Shown here one piece after another: positions 14,362 to 31,781 of a stretch of DNA of 64,000 bases (positions are counted from its first letter, which is position 1; every line of letters begins with the position of its first letter). A program made the position numbers and the translations under genes. Origin of the DNA: an uncultured Maribacter sp. (lineage in GTDB: Bacteria > Bacteroidota > Bacteroidia > Flavobacteriales > Flavobacteriaceae); contig NZ_CANMTX010000001.1 in the NCBI RefSeq assembly GCF_947500985.1, forward strand, positions 682,001 through 746,000, read 5' to 3'. The notes beneath the pieces were generated by a model. That model was not told where the DNA came from. It did no database searches and was given only the letters and a program-made list of their open reading frames with translations.

Positions 14362-14380
14362 ATACTCTTTTTACAATTTA

Positions 14381-14417
14381 AAAAGCCTTTCAGTTCAAAA
14401 TGAACTGAAAGGCTTTT
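14381..14417. terminator. bidirectional intrinsic terminator
   Basis: 17-bp stem AAAAGCCTTTCAGTTCA / TGAACTGAAAGGCTTTT with loop AAA, continuing into more T on the + strand. It lies between convergent genes and should stop transcription from both sides. The AAAGGCTTTTT end resembles that of the terminator at 1263-1284. Confidence 0.9.
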
Positions 14418-14440
14418 TTTAATGGATAGTATTCAATAAC

Positions 14441-23589: not shown

Positions 23590-25362
23590 ATGCAAAAAGT
23601 AACCCGTCTTTTTGACTTTCCATATTATCAGCTTGAAAAGCATGCCTTAAAAGAGGCGTTGGTGTCAAAAAAAAATGGAGAGTGGATTAAAACTTCCACT
23701 CAAGAATATATAGACAAAGCAAATACCATTAGCCGTGGGCTTTTACGCCTAGGGGTCAAACCTAATGACAAGATTGCCGTAATATCACTCACCAATAGAA
23801 CTGAGTGGAATATTATGGACATCGGTATTCTTCAGCTGGGTGCACAGAATGTGCCAATTTACCCAACTATATCTGAAGAAGATTACGCCTATGTGCTTAA
23901 TCATTCTGAAGCGAAATTCTGTTTTGTTTCTTGCGATGAAGTATATGAAAAAGTACTTTCAATTAAAGACCAGGTCAAAAGTTTAGAAAATGTATATTCT
24001 TTTGAAGAACTTTCTAATTGCGATAATTGGAGCAAGGTTTTAGAATTAGGTGCAGATACTTCAAACCAAGATGAAGTTCAAAAATCAATGAATGCCGTTA
24101 CACCAAACGATTTGGCAACATTAATTTATACTTCAGGTACTACAGGTAGACCTAAAGGTGTTATGTTATCGCATAATAACCTTGTAACTAATGCCATTGA
24201 AAGCTCTAAACGATTCCCTATTGAAGACGGAAAAACAAAAGCATTAAGCTTCTTGCCTCTATGTCATGTATATGAGCGAATGTTAATTTACTTATATCAA
24301 TTTAGAGGTGTTTCTATTTACTACGCTGAATCTTTAGATAAAATCAGTGACAACTTAAAAGAAACTAGTCCGCATGTTATGACAGCGGTGCCTCGTCTTT
24401 TAGAAAAGGTGTATGATAAAATCTATGCCAAAGGAACAGAGCTTACCGGTATTAAAAAGAAACTATTCTTTTGGGCTGTAGACTTGGGTCTTAGATACGA
24501 ACCATACGGTCAAAACGGATGGTGGTACGAAACACAACTTTCTATTGCCAGAAAATTAATTTTCAGTAAGTGGAAAGAAGGCTTAGGCGGCAACCTAGGT
24601 TTAATTGCCTCTGGTAGCGCGGCTTTACAGCCTAGATTATCGCGAATATTTAATGCTGCGGAATTCGGACTCATGGAAGGGTACGGATTATCTGAAACGT
24701 CACCTGTAATTTCGGTTAATGATATGCGCGAAGGCGGATTTAGAATTGGTAGCGTTGGTAAACCTATAGACCGCACTGAAGTTAAGATTGCCGCAGATGG
24801 TGAAATATGCATTAAGGGTCCACAAGTTATGCTAGGCTATTATAAAGATGAGGCAAAAACTAAAGAGGTGATTGTTGACGGTTATTTCTTAACTGGTGAT
24901 ATTGGTGAATTAGATAGTGACGGATTCTTGAAAATTACGGATCGTAAAAAGGAAATGTTTAAAACCTCTGGTGGTAAATATGTCGCTCCTCAACTTCTAG
25001 AAAATCGCTTTAAACAATCGCAATTCATAGAGCAAATTATGGTAGTCGGTGAAAGCGAAAAAATGCCTGCTGCATTAATACAGCCAAATTTTGAATATAT
25101 TAAAGAATGGGCTAAAAGAAAGAATATCCCTGTTGGCGATAATTCCGATATCGCAACTAACGAAAAAATTATTGCCAGAATTAATGAAGAAGTAAGTCTA
25201 GCAAATGAAAGTTTTGCCAAATGGGAGAAAATCAAACAATTTAGACTGACCCCTGATATTTGGAGTATGGAAGATGGACATCTGACACCTACAATGAAAA
25301 TGAAAAGAAAGATAATTAAGCAAAAATATATTGCTCTTTATAATGATATTTATGAGCATTAA
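23590..25362 (+). CDS. long-chain acyl-CoA synthetase (AMP-forming)
   Basis: 590-residue ANL-superfamily ligase that activates fatty acids to acyl-CoA with ATP. The P-loop-like motif YTSGTTGRPKGVMLSH is near residue 180. GYGLSETSPV is near 364, LTGDIGELD near 434 and ITDRKKEMFKTSGGKYVAP follows, typical of long-chain acyl-CoA synthetases of the FAA1/FadD15 kind. It stands just upstream of, but separated by a strong terminator from, the beta-oxidation operon, so the substrate supply makes sense. Chain length preference is not visible. Confidence 0.93.
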   Translation: MQKVTRLFDFPYYQLEKHALKEALVSKKNGEWIKTSTQEYIDKANTISRGLLRLGVKPNDKIAVISLTNRTEWNIMDIGILQLGAQNVPIYPTISEEDYAYVLNHSEAKFCFVSCDEVYEKVLSIKDQVKSLENVYSFEELSNCDNWSKVLELGADTSNQDEVQKSMNAVTPNDLATLIYTSGTTGRPKGVMLSHNNLVTNAIESSKRFPIEDGKTKALSFLPLCHVYERMLIYLYQFRGVSIYYAESLDKISDNLKETSPHVMTAVPRLLEKVYDKIYAKGTELTGIKKKLFFWAVDLGLRYEPYGQNGWWYETQLSIARKLIFSKWKEGLGGNLGLIASGSAALQPRLSRIFNAAEFGLMEGYGLSETSPVISVNDMREGGFRIGSVGKPIDRTEVKIAADGEICIKGPQVMLGYYKDEAKTKEVIVDGYFLTGDIGELDSDGFLKITDRKKEMFKTSGGKYVAPQLLENRFKQSQFIEQIMVVGESEKMPAALIQPNFEYIKEWAKRKNIPVGDNSDIATNEKIIARINEEVSLANESFAKWEKIKQFRLTPDIWSMEDGHLTPTMKMKRKIIKQKYIALYNDIYEH

Positions 25363-25404: not shown

Positions 25405-25450
25405 AAGCCCAACTAAATATTGCAAAAGATATTTAGTTGGGCTTTCGTTT
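25405..25450 (+). terminator. intrinsic terminator of the acyl-CoA synthetase gene
   Basis: 16-bp stem AAGCCCAACTAAATAT / ATATTTAGTTGGGCTT with an 8-base loop and then TCGTTTTTG. It lies 42 bases after the stop and separates this gene from the MarR operon. Confidence 0.9.
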
Positions 25451-25612: not shown

Positions 25613-25660
25613 AAATATAAGAAAATTTATTATGCATGCATAATAAATTTTCTTATATTT
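25613..25660. promoter_or_regulatory. perfect 48-bp palindrome, probable MarR operator
   Basis: Every base from 25613 to 25660 pairs across the centre at 25636/25637. The core is TTATTATGCATGCATAATAA. The dyad continues outward through AATTT and AAATATAA-type arms. It overlaps the -7 box of the MarR gene, so binding should block transcription. Palindromes of this kind are usual MarR operators but are normally about 16-20 bp, so the length is remarkable. Confidence 0.85.
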
Positions 25661-25661
25661 G
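25654..25661 (+). promoter_or_regulatory. -7 box (TATATTTG) of the MarR-fad operon
   Basis: TATATTTG fits TAnnTTTG and lies on the right edge of the palindrome, 20 bases before the ATG at 25681. An AAGGAG-like sequence sits before that ATG, unusual for this phylum, and supports the start. Confidence 0.6.
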
Positions 25662-25680
25662 GGAACCAACTAAAAGGAGT

Positions 25681-26112
25681 ATGAAAGAAGCAACGATAGA
25701 TTATGCGTTGAGAGCTACATGGCAAGCAGTAGCTAGAATGTATAATGAAGAAGCAAAGAATTTTGATTCTACTATGGCTGTTGGTTTTACATTACTAAGT
25801 ATTGATCCAAAAACGGGCACACCATCTACTTCCCTAGGTCCAAAAATGGGAATGGAAGCGACTAGCCTTTCTAGGATTCTAAAAAGTATGGAACAAAAAG
25901 GTCTTATATTAAGAAAGCCTAACCCTAAAGATGGCAGAGGTGTTCTTATTTATTTAACAGACTTCGGACTTGAGAAAAGGAACGATTCTAAAAGTACCGT
26001 TCTTAGATTTAATGAGGCTGTAAAAAATGAAGTTACCGATGAAAAATTAGAAAGTTTTTTTGAAGTTACAAATGCCATCAATAAACTCATTGCAGACAAA
26101 AAATTATTTTAA
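25681..26112 (+). CDS. MarR-family transcriptional regulator
   Basis: 143 residues with the MarR winged helix: TLLSIDPKTGTPSTSLGPKMGMEATSLSRILKSMEQKGLI (in pieces) for the helix-turn-helix and KPNPKDGRGVLIYLTDFG for the wing. The start is the ATG at 25681, preceded by AAGGAG; the in-frame ATG at 25636 lies in the centre of the palindrome and is not used here. The fadN gene follows after 33 bases. The likely role is a repressor of beta-oxidation that senses acyl-CoA or a related ligand, which is inferred from context. Confidence 0.9.
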   Translation: MKEATIDYALRATWQAVARMYNEEAKNFDSTMAVGFTLLSIDPKTGTPSTSLGPKMGMEATSLSRILKSMEQKGLILRKPNPKDGRGVLIYLTDFGLEKRNDSKSTVLRFNEAVKNEVTDEKLESFFEVTNAINKLIADKKLF

Positions 26113-26145: not shown

Positions 26146-28551
26146 ATGAACAAGCACATTAAAAAAGTAGCGGTCATTGGCTCAGGAATTATGGGTAGCG
26201 GTATAGCCTGTCATTTTGCAAATATTGGCGTAGAGGTTTTATTGTTAGATATTGTTCCTAGAGAACTAAATGACAAAGAGAAATCGAAAGGTTTAACCTT
26301 GCAAGACAAGGTAGTTCGCAATAGAATGGTAAATGATTCTTTAACCGCAGCGTTGAAATCAAAACCATCACCTATTTATCATCAAAAATTTGCTAACCGT
26401 ATTACTACAGGTAATATGGAAGATGATATTTCAAAAATATCTAAAGTTGATTGGATTATTGAGGTTGTTGTTGAAAGATTAGATATTAAAAAACAAGTAT
26501 TTGAAAATATTGAAAAGTACCGTACTCCGGGTACTTTAATTACTTCTAACACTTCTGGTATTCCTATCAAATTTATGTCTGAAGGCAGAAGTGATGACTT
26601 TCAAAAGCATTTTTGTGGTACCCACTTTTTTAACCCTGCACGTTACTTAAAACTTTTTGAGATTATTCCTGGTCCAAAAACAGATGATGATGTATTAAAC
26701 TTTTTAAATGGTTACGGAGAAAAGTTTTTAGGTAAGACTTCTGTAGTTGCCAAAGATACTCCGGCATTTATAGGTAATAGAATTGGAATCTTTAGTATTC
26801 AAAGCCTTTTCCATATGGTAAAAGATATGGATATGACCGTTGAAGAAGTAGACAAACTTACTGGTCCTGTGATCGGTAGACCAAAATCTGCTACATTTAG
26901 AACTGTTGACGTTGTTGGTTTAGATACTTTGGTACATGTTGCCAATGGTATTTATGATAACTGTAAAGATGATGAGCGTCACGATTTATTTAAACTACCA
27001 GGTTTCATCAATACCATGATGGAGAACAAATGGTTAGGTAGTAAAACAGGACAAGGTTTCTATAAGAAATCGAAAGACGCAAAAGGTAAAACTGAAATAT
27101 TAACGCTTGATTTAGGTTCGATGGATTATCGTTCCAAAAAGAGTGCAAAATTTGCCACGTTAGAATTAACAAAAACGGTTGACAAGGTAGTTGATCGCTT
27201 TGCTGTTCTTTGTGGTGGAAAAGATAAAGCAGGTGAATTCTACCGTAAGAGTTTTGGACAGTTGTTCGCTTACGTTTCTCATAGAATACCTGAAATTACA
27301 GATGAGCTTTATAAAATTGACGATGCCATGAAAGCTGGTTTTGGCTGGGAACATGGTCCATTCCAAATTTGGGATGCTGTTGGTTTAGATAAAGGTCTTG
27401 AATTTATTAAAGCTGAAGGTTTAGAAGCTGCAGCATGGGTTCAAGAAATGAAATCTGCTGGTAAAGAATCTTTTTACTCAGTAAAAGAAGGAAGCACCTA
27501 TTTCTATGATATTCCGAAAAAATCCATGGAAAAAATTCCTGGACAAGATTCATTTATCATATTAGATAATATTAGAAAATCTAAAGAAGTATTTAAAAAT
27601 GCCGGTGTTGTTGTAGAAGATTTAGGTGATGGAATTTTAAATGTAGAATTCCAATCTAAAATGAATACCATTGGTGGTGATGTTTTAGCTGGCTTGAATA
27701 AAGCAATAGACATGGCCGAAAAAGATTTTCAAGGTTTGGTTGTTGGTAACCAAGCTCCGAATTTCTCTGTAGGTGCAAATATTGGTATGATTTTCATGAT
27801 GGCAGTCGAGCAGGAATATGACGAGCTTAACATGGCTATTAAAATGTTTCAAGATACCATGATGCGTATGCGTTACTCTGCTATTCCAACAATTTCTGCC
27901 CCTCATGGTATGGCATTAGGTGGTGGTTGTGAAATTTCTCTGCATGCAGATAAGGTTGTTGCGGCAGCTGAAACTTATATGGGACTTGTAGAATTTGGAG
28001 TTGGTGTTCTTCCTGGTGGAGGTGGCTCTAAAGAGATGGCATTACGTGCACAAGATACCTTTAAGAAAGGTGATGTTGAATTGAATGTATTGCAAGAATA
28101 CTTTTTGACCATAGGTATGGCAAAAGTATCTACTTCAGCCTACGAAGCTTTTGATTTGGGATTACTTCAAAAAGGTAAAGATGTAGTAGTGGTTAATAAA
28201 GATCGTCAAATTGCAACTGCAAAAGCACATGCTATTTTAATGGCAGAATCTGGATACACACAGCCAGCAGCCCGAAACGATATCAAAGTTTTAGGTAAAC
28301 AAGCTTTAGGTATGTTCGTTGTAGGTACAGATGCTATGGAAGCTAGCCACTATATTAGCGAACACGACAAGAAAATAGCAAACAAGCTTGCTTATGTAAT
28401 GGCAGGTGGTGATTTATCAGAACCTACATTAGTATCTGAGCAATATCTATTGGATATAGAGCGTGAAGCTTTCTTATCATTATGTACTGAGAGAAAAACT
28501 CTAGAACGTATTCAGCATATGTTGAAAACGGGTAAGCCATTACGTAACTAA
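26146..28551 (+). CDS. fadN: 3-hydroxyacyl-CoA dehydrogenase/enoyl-CoA hydratase
   Basis: 801-residue bifunctional beta-oxidation enzyme. The NAD-binding dehydrogenase comes first (IGSGIMGSGIACHFAN near residue 11, then GTHFFNPARYLKLFEI), followed by 3HCDH C-terminal domains (about 210-420). The enoyl-CoA hydratase domain is last (about 480-690), with GNQAPNFSVGANI, GMALGGGCEISLHAD and GVGVLPGGGGS. This dehydrogenase-then-hydratase order is that of Bacillus FadN and opposite to E. coli FadB. It catalyses hydration of enoyl-CoA and NAD-dependent oxidation of 3-hydroxyacyl-CoA. The symbol is given by family and by the fadN-fadA-fadE gene order. Confidence 0.93.
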   Translation: MNKHIKKVAVIGSGIMGSGIACHFANIGVEVLLLDIVPRELNDKEKSKGLTLQDKVVRNRMVNDSLTAALKSKPSPIYHQKFANRITTGNMEDDISKISKVDWIIEVVVERLDIKKQVFENIEKYRTPGTLITSNTSGIPIKFMSEGRSDDFQKHFCGTHFFNPARYLKLFEIIPGPKTDDDVLNFLNGYGEKFLGKTSVVAKDTPAFIGNRIGIFSIQSLFHMVKDMDMTVEEVDKLTGPVIGRPKSATFRTVDVVGLDTLVHVANGIYDNCKDDERHDLFKLPGFINTMMENKWLGSKTGQGFYKKSKDAKGKTEILTLDLGSMDYRSKKSAKFATLELTKTVDKVVDRFAVLCGGKDKAGEFYRKSFGQLFAYVSHRIPEITDELYKIDDAMKAGFGWEHGPFQIWDAVGLDKGLEFIKAEGLEAAAWVQEMKSAGKESFYSVKEGSTYFYDIPKKSMEKIPGQDSFIILDNIRKSKEVFKNAGVVVEDLGDGILNVEFQSKMNTIGGDVLAGLNKAIDMAEKDFQGLVVGNQAPNFSVGANIGMIFMMAVEQEYDELNMAIKMFQDTMMRMRYSAIPTISAPHGMALGGGCEISLHADKVVAAAETYMGLVEFGVGVLPGGGGSKEMALRAQDTFKKGDVELNVLQEYFLTIGMAKVSTSAYEAFDLGLLQKGKDVVVVNKDRQIATAKAHAILMAESGYTQPAARNDIKVLGKQALGMFVVGTDAMEASHYISEHDKKIANKLAYVMAGGDLSEPTLVSEQYLLDIEREAFLSLCTERKTLERIQHMLKTGKPLRN

Positions 28552-28650: not shown

Positions 28651-29841
28651 ATGAAAACTGCATATATAGTAAAAGGATATAGAACTGCTGTTGGAAAAGC
28701 TCCGAAGGGTGTTTTCCGTTTTAAGCGAACAGATGAATTGGCTGCCGAAACCATCGAATATATGATGAAGGAATTGCCACAATTCGACAAAAAACGTATT
28801 GATGATGTAATCGTAGGTAATGCGATGCCTGAGGGTTCTCAAGGTTTGAACATGGCAAGACTAATTTCATTAATGGGATTGGATATTGTTGATGTACCGG
28901 GCGTAACCGTAAATCGATTCTGTGCATCAGGATTGGAAACTATTGGTATTGCTGCAGCTAAGATTCAAGCTGGTATGGCAGATTGTATTATTGCTGGTGG
29001 TGCCGAAAGTATGAGCTCTGTTCCAATGACGGGTAATAAGCCAGAACTGAACTACGATTTAGCAAATTCTGGTCATGAAGATTATTACTGGGGAATGGGT
29101 AATACTGCTGAAGCCGTTGCAAATGAGTACAAAGTATCTCGTGAAGACCAAGATAATTTTGCTTACAATTCTCATATGAAAGCTTTAAAAGCACAAGCAG
29201 AAGACCGTTTTCAAAGTCAGATAGCACCAATTGAAGTTGAGGAAACATATTTAGATGCTAACGGAAAAAAAGCACATCGTAAATATACAGTAACCAAAGA
29301 TGAAGGCCCGAGAAAAGGAACTTCTGTAGAGGTTTTGAATAAACTTCGCCCAGTTTTTGCTGCTGGCGGAAGTGTAACTGCTGGTAACTCATCGCAAATG
29401 AGTGATGGTGCAGCATTCGTTTTAATAATGAGTGAAGAAATGGTGAAAGAATTAAATCTTGAACCGATTGCTCGTTTAGTAAACTATGCAGCCGCTGGTG
29501 TACCACCTAGAATAATGGGTATTGGTCCTATCGCTGCTATACCAAAGGCATTAAAACAAGCAGATATAAAACTAAATGATATTGGTTTAATAGAATTGAA
29601 TGAAGCTTTCGCTTCACAATCTTTGGCAGTAATGCGTGAATTGAATATCAATCAAGACATCGTAAACGTAAATGGTGGTGCAATTGCACTTGGTCATCCA
29701 TTAGGATGTACAGGAGCAAAATTATCAGTACAGCTATTTGATGAGATGCGTAAAAGAAATATGCAAGGTAAATACGGTATGGTAACCATGTGCGTAGGTA
29801 CAGGTCAAGGAGCTGCCGGAATATTTGAATTTTTAAATTAA
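28651..29841 (+). CDS. fadA: acetyl-CoA C-acyltransferase (thiolase)
   Basis: 396-residue degradative thiolase that cleaves 3-ketoacyl-CoA. The nucleophilic Cys is in NRFCASGLETI (Cys 91). GGAIALGHPLGCTGAK carries the catalytic His, and CVGTGQG near the C-terminus carries the second Cys. NEAFASQSLAV is also present. It is the second enzyme of the fadN-fadA-fadE operon, after a 99-base gap that holds an inverted repeat. Confidence 0.95.
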   Translation: MKTAYIVKGYRTAVGKAPKGVFRFKRTDELAAETIEYMMKELPQFDKKRIDDVIVGNAMPEGSQGLNMARLISLMGLDIVDVPGVTVNRFCASGLETIGIAAAKIQAGMADCIIAGGAESMSSVPMTGNKPELNYDLANSGHEDYYWGMGNTAEAVANEYKVSREDQDNFAYNSHMKALKAQAEDRFQSQIAPIEVEETYLDANGKKAHRKYTVTKDEGPRKGTSVEVLNKLRPVFAAGGSVTAGNSSQMSDGAAFVLIMSEEMVKELNLEPIARLVNYAAAGVPPRIMGIGPIAAIPKALKQADIKLNDIGLIELNEAFASQSLAVMRELNINQDIVNVNGGAIALGHPLGCTGAKLSVQLFDEMRKRNMQGKYGMVTMCVGTGQGAAGIFEFLN

Positions 29842-29904: not shown

Positions 29905-31716
29905 ATGAGTACAGATACAGTAAAAAAAGACATTCTTAGAGGAGGACAGTTCCTTGTTAAAGAAACCAATTGTGAAGATGTTTTCACATTAGAAGATTTG
30001 AATGAAGAGCAACGCATGATGCGTGAGAGTACCAGAGAATTCGTTGACAGAGAACTTTGGGCACATTGGGAGCGTTTTGAAAATAAAGATTATGCTTTCA
30101 CTGAAGAAACTATGCGTAAAGCAGGTGAGTTAGGATTATTGAGTGTTGCTGTACCAGAATCATATGGTGGTATGGGAATGGGCTTTGTTTCTACCATGTT
30201 GGTATGTGATTACATTTCTGGAGCAACTGGTTCTTTCAGTACTGCTTTTGGTGCACATACCGGTATTGGTACAATGCCAATTACGCTTTATGGATCTGAA
30301 GAACAAAAACAAAAATATGTGCCAAGATTAGCTTCTGGAGAATGGTTTGGTGCTTACTGCCTTACTGAGCCAGGTGCTGGTTCTGATGCAAATTCAGGAA
30401 AAACGAAGGCTGTTCTTTCTGATGACGGAAAAACATACAGCATTTCTGGTCAGAAAATGTGGATTTCAAACGCAGGTTTCTGTAATATGTTTATCGTATT
30501 TGCTCGTATTGAAGATGATAAAAACATTACTGGTTTCATTGTAGAAAATGATCCAAGTAATGGTATTACCTTAGGTGATGAAGAAAAGAAATTAGGTATT
30601 CACTCCTCTTCTACGCGTCAGGTTTTCTTTAACGAAACTAAAGTTTCAGCTGAGAATATGTTATCTACAAGAGGTAACGGATTCAAAATTGCAATGAATG
30701 CATTAAACGTAGGTCGTATAAAATTAGCGGCTGCTTGTTTAGATGCACAAAGAAGAGTTATCGGTGAAGCTACTAAATATGCTAACGAGCGTATTCAGTT
30801 CAAAACTCCCATTATGAACTTTGGTGCTATTAAGTCTAAAATTGCCGAAATGGCAACTAGCGTTTATGTTGATGAATCTGCAAGTTACCGTGCTGCAAAA
30901 AATATAGAAGATCGTATTGCTATGCGTGAAGCTGAAGGCAATACACACCAAGAGGCTGAACTTAAAGGTGTTGAAGAATATGCTATTGAATGTTCTATTC
31001 TTAAAGTAGCTGTTTCTGAAGATTGTCAAAAAACTACAGATGAAGGTATTCAGATTTTTGGAGGTATGGGCTTCAGTGCTGATACTCCGATGGAATCTGC
31101 TTGGAGAGATTCAAGAATTGCCCGTATCTATGAAGGTACAAACGAAATCAACAGAATGTTGGCAGTAGGTATGCTAGTGAAAAAAGCAATGAAAGGTCAT
31201 GTTGATCTTTTAGGTCCTGCTACGGCAGTTGGTGAAGAATTAATGGGGATTCCTTCTTTCGATACTCCAGATTTTTCTGAACTATTCGCTGAAGAAAAAG
31301 ATATCTTGAAGAGACTTAAAAAGGTTTTCTTGATGGTTGCTGGATCTGCGGTTCAGAAATACGGAGCAGAATTAGAAAATCACCAACAATTAATGTTGGC
31401 TGCATCTGATATTCTTATTGAAGTATACATGGCAGAATCTGCTTTATTACGTACCGAGAAAAATGCAAAACGATTTGGAGAAGAAGCACAAGCTACTCAA
31501 ATAGCGATGTCTAGACTATATTTGTTTAATGCTACTGAAACTATCATCAATAAAGGTAAAGAAGCTATCGTTTCTTTTGCCGAAGGTGATGAGCAAAGAA
31601 TGATGTTAATGGGACTTAAACGTTTCACTAAATATACAAACTACCCTAATGTAGTTGCCTTACGCACACAAATTGCCGATAAGGTTGCTGCAGATAACGG
31701 TTATACGTTTGACTAA
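29905..31716 (+). CDS. fadE: acyl-CoA dehydrogenase
   Basis: About 603 residues, FAD-dependent acyl-CoA dehydrogenase for the first step of beta-oxidation. The N-terminal helical domain starts near FTLEDLNEEQRMMRE. FAD and substrate motifs include YCLTEPGAGSDA and MWISNAGFCN. The catalytic Glu region appears as RIYEGTNEINRML. A 180-residue C-terminal extension (from about residue 430) is like Bacillus FadE and mammalian VLCAD. The ATG at 29905 was chosen over a TTG at 29881, since MSTDTV begins the conserved part. The terminator at 31754 ends the operon. Confidence 0.94.
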   Translation: MSTDTVKKDILRGGQFLVKETNCEDVFTLEDLNEEQRMMRESTREFVDRELWAHWERFENKDYAFTEETMRKAGELGLLSVAVPESYGGMGMGFVSTMLVCDYISGATGSFSTAFGAHTGIGTMPITLYGSEEQKQKYVPRLASGEWFGAYCLTEPGAGSDANSGKTKAVLSDDGKTYSISGQKMWISNAGFCNMFIVFARIEDDKNITGFIVENDPSNGITLGDEEKKLGIHSSSTRQVFFNETKVSAENMLSTRGNGFKIAMNALNVGRIKLAAACLDAQRRVIGEATKYANERIQFKTPIMNFGAIKSKIAEMATSVYVDESASYRAAKNIEDRIAMREAEGNTHQEAELKGVEEYAIECSILKVAVSEDCQKTTDEGIQIFGGMGFSADTPMESAWRDSRIARIYEGTNEINRMLAVGMLVKKAMKGHVDLLGPATAVGEELMGIPSFDTPDFSELFAEEKDILKRLKKVFLMVAGSAVQKYGAELENHQQLMLAASDILIEVYMAESALLRTEKNAKRFGEEAQATQIAMSRLYLFNATETIINKGKEAIVSFAEGDEQRMMLMGLKRFTKYTNYPNVVALRTQIADKVAADNGYTFD

Positions 31717-31753: not shown

Positions 31754-31781
31754 AAACCGTCCCAATTGGGGCGGTTTTTTT
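31754..31781 (+). terminator. intrinsic terminator of the fad operon
   Basis: Stem AAACCGTCCC / GGGGCGGTTT (one G-T pair) with loop AATT and then a T run. It starts 38 bases after the fadE stop. Confidence 0.9.

Follow-up and report, generated by a model that had tools for sequence, protein, structure and literature searches.

A perfect 48-bp palindrome upstream of a marR gene most likely contains a 24–26-base switch for fatty-acid burning, its extra length being a local addition in a few relatives. Comparison of related sequences indicates that the inner 24–26 bp are, very probably, the operator of an autoregulating MarR repressor of a Flavobacteriales-wide fatty-acid-degradation regulon, and that the outer arms lie outside this operator. 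The sequence supports this through the conservation of the site, its narrow placing, the existence of other sites and its co-occurrence with marR.

The palindrome, its promoter and the marR-fad operon

The palindrome occupies positions 25613–25660 of the window (the whole 64-kb stretch of DNA analysed), with two arms of 24 nt each (25613–25636 and 25637–25660) that are 100% complementary and have no spacer between them. It is the longest perfect spacer-free palindrome of the window, the runners-up having arms of 14 and 9. A chance origin is ruled out by 100 dinucleotide-Markov sequences of 64 kb, in which the longest arm was 7–13 as against 24; approximately 2e-9 arms of at least 24 are expected per window. 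The palindrome is thus as perfect as the preliminary description had claimed, and the −7 box that was placed at its right edge is indeed there: TATATTTG (TAnnTTTG) of the marR-fad operon lies at 25654–25661 on the + strand, so that the right arm contains all of its bases except the last. The TAnnTTTG consensus and its placing at −12 to −5 are given in the excerpt of PMC9723704, and this rule sets the predicted transcription start (+1) near 25666. The conserved core ATTTATTATGCATGCATAATAAAT (25625–25648, unstranded), described below, therefore spans approximately −41 to −18, and the palindrome would not be transcribed from this promoter. Two more perfect inverted repeats in the window, at 1260–1287 and 14380–14418 (AAAAAGCCTTTCA.../...TGAAAGGCTTTTT), have the look of intrinsic terminators.

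The first gene of the operon, marR (25681–26112, + strand), encodes the proposed repressor of 143 aa. It is followed on the same strand by genes for a fadB/fadJ-type 3-hydroxyacyl-CoA dehydrogenase/enoyl-CoA hydratase (26146–28551), a fadA-type thiolase (28651–29841) and a fadE-type acyl-CoA dehydrogenase (29905–31716; NF058590, 713.1 bits versus 600), for which an ATG start was picked within a longer TTG open reading frame. Directly after fadE, at 31754–31777, a near-perfect palindrome AAACCGTCCCAATTGGGGCGGTTT with a T run is a likely operon terminator. Upstream lies a fadD-type acyl-CoA ligase gene (23590–25362, + strand), probably a separate unit with its own terminator behind it; an unstranded intrinsic-terminator-like hairpin with 16-bp arms is located between fadD and the operator (25405–25444). 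FadB, FadA and FadE are encoded 3′ of marR in all 71 loci of sufficient length (of 80), and in 70 of the 71 long loci FadD is encoded 5′ of marR in the same orientation.

The gene next to the palindrome encodes a MarR regulator, as had been proposed: its product scores 40.6 bits with PF01047 (gathering cut-off 24.6), beta-oxidation genes come next, and its own promoter contains the palindromic site sought for a member of this family. None of the nine listed NCBIfam families naming a MarR equivalog reached its cut-off, the best being Saro0803TransReg with 42.4 versus 200 bits. The host genome is Maribacter-like and belongs to the Flavobacteriaceae; among named records, the closest MarR proteins are those of Maribacter, with identities of up to 99%, and of other members of this family. 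Residues E59, S62, L63, R65, D84 and R86 are invariant across 14 aligned MarR proteins; by analogy with the family, they presumably lie in the recognition helix and wing.

The conserved core and its occurrences

We compared 110 marR upstreams, made up of 30 loci among the matches in 49 of 60 genomes and the best 80 of 563 named loci; they represent 100 distinct upstreams, with some genomes in both sets, and, because the genomes are related, the counts are not independent events. The core ATTTATTATGCATGCATAATAAAT, which corresponds to the inner 24–26 bp and is the proposed site of a MarR dimer, was found with at least 20 of 24 letters in all 110 upstreams (100 distinct) and with all 24 in 76 of them. 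The distance from the palindrome centre to the marR ATG is 33–50 bp over the 110 loci and 42–45 bp in 98, and the offset from the centre to the first base of TAnnTTTG is 17 or 18 bp in 105, with an earlier match to the pattern in 4 and TATATTTA in L078. Positions 1–13 on either side of the centre are paired and conserved throughout this set. Further out, left positions 14–18 and 22–24 carry less than 0.7 bit, and the T-rich left positions 19–21 carry 1.0–1.45 bit and pair at frequencies of 0.74, 0.20 and 0.49, compared with 0.74, 0.21 and 0.48 predicted from column composition; on the right side a T run extends to position 15, and the −7 box takes up positions 18–25. Within the genus, the core lies upstream of marR in all 35 genomes having the gene (30 upstreams and five more). 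The comparison thus supports the original proposal that an operator sits on the promoter of this MarR-led beta-oxidation operon. In L275, L186, L296 and L297 two operator-like dyads stand in tandem upstream of marR.

Searching the genome and its relatives for the dyad before other fad genes, as the preliminary description had suggested, was productive. The 12-bp core TATGCRYGCATA occurs seven times in the genome itself, against three occurrences of the reversed control. Besides marR, the sites are at a fadH-like gene (Oxidored_FMN + Pyr_redox_2; 2,4-dienoyl-CoA-reductase-like), at etfB (electron-transfer flavoprotein) with pdhB divergent, at a thioesterase gene with a nitronate-monooxygenase-like gene divergent, and at a KAS III-like gene, the names fadH and pdhB being our reading. 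The sixth site (L289, G000:C3:85348), which is also among five strict 18-mers, lies 124 bp upstream of biotin carboxylase and may tie anaplerosis to the regulon. The seventh (L292, G000:C4:90565) has the variant core TACTATGCACGCATAATT and lies 84 bp upstream of a CarbopepD_reg-domain gene, in our reading a TonB-type receptor and a candidate importer. For both of these sites the fatty-acid link is less obvious.

In 36 same-genus genomes the exact 14-mer TTATGCATGCATAA gave 60 sites, compared with two for the reversed control. By coordinates, 34 of them are at marR; of the 26 elsewhere, 24 are upstream of fadH-like, etfB/pdhB, thioesterase/nitronate monooxygenase or KAS III-like genes, and in the other two (L149 and L146, from two genomes) the exact core precedes what we read as an SGNH-type lipoprotein gene. 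When looser sites, picked by us among the matches listed, and the own-genome sites are added to the 14-mer sites, 39 of 44 non-marR sites of the genus precede fadH-like, etfB, thioesterase or KAS III-like genes. The remaining five comprise the two lipoprotein sites and three matching no reference gene, and three of the five have a broken TGCATGCA centre. Distances from the centre are narrow by class: 31–35 bp for fadH-like, 61–63 bp for etfB, 21–23 bp for thioesterase and 54–58 bp for KAS III-like genes. A scattered repeat element was considered and rejected, as there are 2–6 sites per genome among the matches listed, mostly at the same gene positions.

Of 296 genomes of the order, 190 have a marR relative at E 1e-15 or better and 106 have the strict 18-mer TWYTATGCATGCATARWA; the 18-mer was found in 103 of the 190 genomes with marR versus 3 of the 106 without, an association whose Fisher value is inflated by the relatedness of the genomes. 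The strict 18-mer is missing from 87 of the 190, and all 17 such same-family genomes that were read carry a variant of at least 16/18 upstream of marR. In another 60 marR upstreams of the order, chosen by us, the degenerate core TWYTATGCNNGCATARWA matches at 16/18 or better in 54, versus 0.25% of mononucleotide shuffles, and six show no clear site. Compared with the 22-mer, 12 of 13 orthologues outside the genus have 16–20 letters and one (L185) has 12 letters and no clear site, as is also the case for a second marR copy (L191, 37% identical) with 15 letters. The 30 strict 18-mer loci listed are at marR (7), etfB (13), fadH-like (2, one of them in the own genome) and KAS III-like (1) genes, and 7 are at none of the reference genes. 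Five loci of the order (L197, L198, L199, L205 and L206) have marR and a gene for a FadD-like ligase (~32% identity) in divergent orientation, with the site between them. Beyond the order, a relative at E 1e-20 is present in 21 of 118 genomes of the phylum, eight of which belong to other orders of the class. In those eight (311 bp scanned, gene start included) the core matches at 16/18 or better in five and at 15/18 or better in seven, against a baseline of approximately 4% for at least 15/18 in shuffles of the 60 further marR upstreams, which is suggestive only of an operator reaching beyond the order.

It is very unlikely that the core is bound by another protein, such as a global regulator, with marR as its neighbour by happenstance, given that the core precedes marR in 35 of 35 same-genus genomes with the gene and that only 3 of the 106 genomes in which no marR was found have the strict 18-mer. 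In favour of a MarR with activating or mixed effects at part of its sites are the other units: there, the offset of the operator from −7-like boxes varies and in some units a box close downstream is missing, so that repression is less clear. At marR, however, the core covers approximately −41 to −18 against the −7 box, which is a repressor position, and we regard activation or mixed effects as quite unlikely. 

The outer arms and their history

The preliminary description had treated all 48 bp as the functional unit, large enough for two stacked dimers; conservation and pairing, in contrast, reach only about 13 bp out from the centre in either direction. The left outer arm (25613–25624, unstranded) is a lineage-specific mirror copy of the promoter side, and it is perfect only in 5 of the 35 same-genus genomes with marR; the right outer arm (25649–25660, unstranded) overlaps the −7 box. 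The full 48 bp are present in L005 (the window), L007, L008, L019 and L022, with 36 genus genomes searched and marR found in 35 (G024 being without it). The 48-bp form exists in two versions at offset 17, G-C (L005, L007, L008) or T-A (L019, L022), and the left arm of each version agrees with the right arm of its own locus. In close relatives the palindrome is retained only in part: the core is present and the full 48 bp are absent, for example in L006, L010 and L012, despite MarR proteins that are 98–99% identical.

To quantify the outer pairing, right flanks were dealt out anew among the 100 upstreams in 5000 shuffles. In all 100 upstreams there were 488 paired outer cells versus a shuffle mean of 476.2, a number reached by 396 of the 5000 shuffles; with the five 48-bp genomes left out (95 upstreams), positions 14–24 had 433 paired cells versus 433.3. 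Outside the five 48-bp genomes, outer positions thus pair at the level of chance, and two stacked dimers are not indicated. Pairs running outward from position 13 to position 17 or beyond were found in 13 of 100 upstreams (shuffle mean 2.4; none of 5000 shuffles reached 13), and five runs reached position 24 (average 0.57; none of 5000 reached 5).

These runs to position 17 or beyond, the perfect arms of five genomes and the one outer pair that covaries (G-C versus T-A) speak for the whole 48 bp being a functional extended operator in this lineage, contacted by two dimers or widely by one, with tighter repression as a result. We nevertheless think this unlikely, in view of the outer pairing just described, of the close relatives that lack the 48 bp with nearly the same MarR, and of the other own-genome sites, none of which had such outer arms when inspected by eye. 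Still less weight is due to a role of the palindrome as a cruciform in DNA or a leader-RNA hairpin, which we consider most improbable. As a single DNA strand the palindrome does fold well (−17.2 kcal/mol, z −8.0), but it is the letters of the core and not the length of the stem that are conserved, and the palindrome ends before the predicted start near 25666, which makes the leader-RNA hairpin of the preliminary description unlikely to arise from this promoter. The comparison is best explained if the outer 11–12 bp of each arm lie outside the operator, the right one being the −7 box under its own constraint and the left one its mirror copy.

The left outer arm probably was, or at least may have been, made by template switching at a quasi-palindrome, a type of mutation described for E. 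coli thyA and lacZ reporters (excerpt of PMC7202029). The likeness is that an imperfect inverted repeat turned perfect; unlike those reporters, the present case comes from comparison only and is located at a promoter. In the gene tree the two 48-bp versions stand apart, and at least four trait changes are needed. With 1.9 kb of gene sequence from 30 rows, the five 48-bp genomes are rejected as a single clade (p 6e-16); with 179 bp of upstream from 11 rows hand-picked as alignable, they are not (p 0.058). Since one origin is rejected by the genes but not by the short upstream, the form may also go back to a 48-bp ancestor, given several losses and a double change; in our view two arm-copying events fit best. 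We hold tentatively, at somewhat below an even chance, that within one genus the operator was turned on two or more occasions into a perfect palindrome of 48 bp, through template switching that copied the −7-box arm into the opposite arm. If true, transcription-factor dyads would be hot spots for mirroring a promoter element onto the other strand.

Proposed mechanism and known regulators

In the scheme that we infer for binding, repression and ligand, a MarR homodimer on TATGCATGCATA (approximately −41 to −18) would block sigma-A RNA polymerase and thereby repress marR-fadB-fadA-fadE and other fatty-acid-breakdown units, namely the 2,4-dienoyl-CoA-reductase-like gene, etfB, the thioesterase gene and the KAS III-like gene. 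When fatty acids arrive, a pathway intermediate, most likely fatty acyl-CoA, would release MarR. For MarR repressors of catabolic operons, release by an early intermediate is common, the releasing compound being a CoA thioester in several cases (excerpt of PMC5487221). By analogy, an acyl-CoA is thus the likely inducer here.

FadR, a GntR protein in Escherichia coli and a TetR protein in Bacillus, represses a scattered fad regulon and is released by acyl-CoA. Its role is alike, but the protein family differs (PF01047 here): GntR and TetR domains are absent from the present protein, and all four listed Pfam families are of the MarR or winged-helix type. CouR, HcaR and FerC, regulators of aromatic-acid catabolism, are likewise MarR repressors of catabolic operons, with CoA-thioester inducers in several (excerpt of PMC5487221); they differ in pathway and sequence, CouR giving weak matches only (6c28, E 0.0024; 5cyv, E 5.9e-5). 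FabT, a MarR-family protein of Lactobacillales, is likewise encoded at the head of the fatty-acid operon under its control, and has further regulon units (excerpt of PMC13046290). However, FabT governs synthesis, and acyl-ACP improves its DNA binding, whereas the genes downstream of the present marR encode beta-oxidation enzymes, not a fatty-acid synthesis operon, and release by a ligand would be expected. The 45 listed sequences that include the CouR matches contain none named FabT.

In the literature that we searched, we came across neither a MarR-fad regulon of Bacteroidota nor a description of this operator, the single hit for the latter being unrelated. In F. psychrophilum, beta-oxidation genes were reported to be up with fish mucus and plasma, and the excerpt of PMC9723704 that describes this names no regulator. 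The device is ordinary in kind, an autoregulating MarR repressor with a palindromic operator, and its headline length is a lineage-specific extension; as a caution, a long palindrome need not mean a long binding site. The finding supplies a regulator together with a precise operator, a list of targets and a class of ligands that can be tested.
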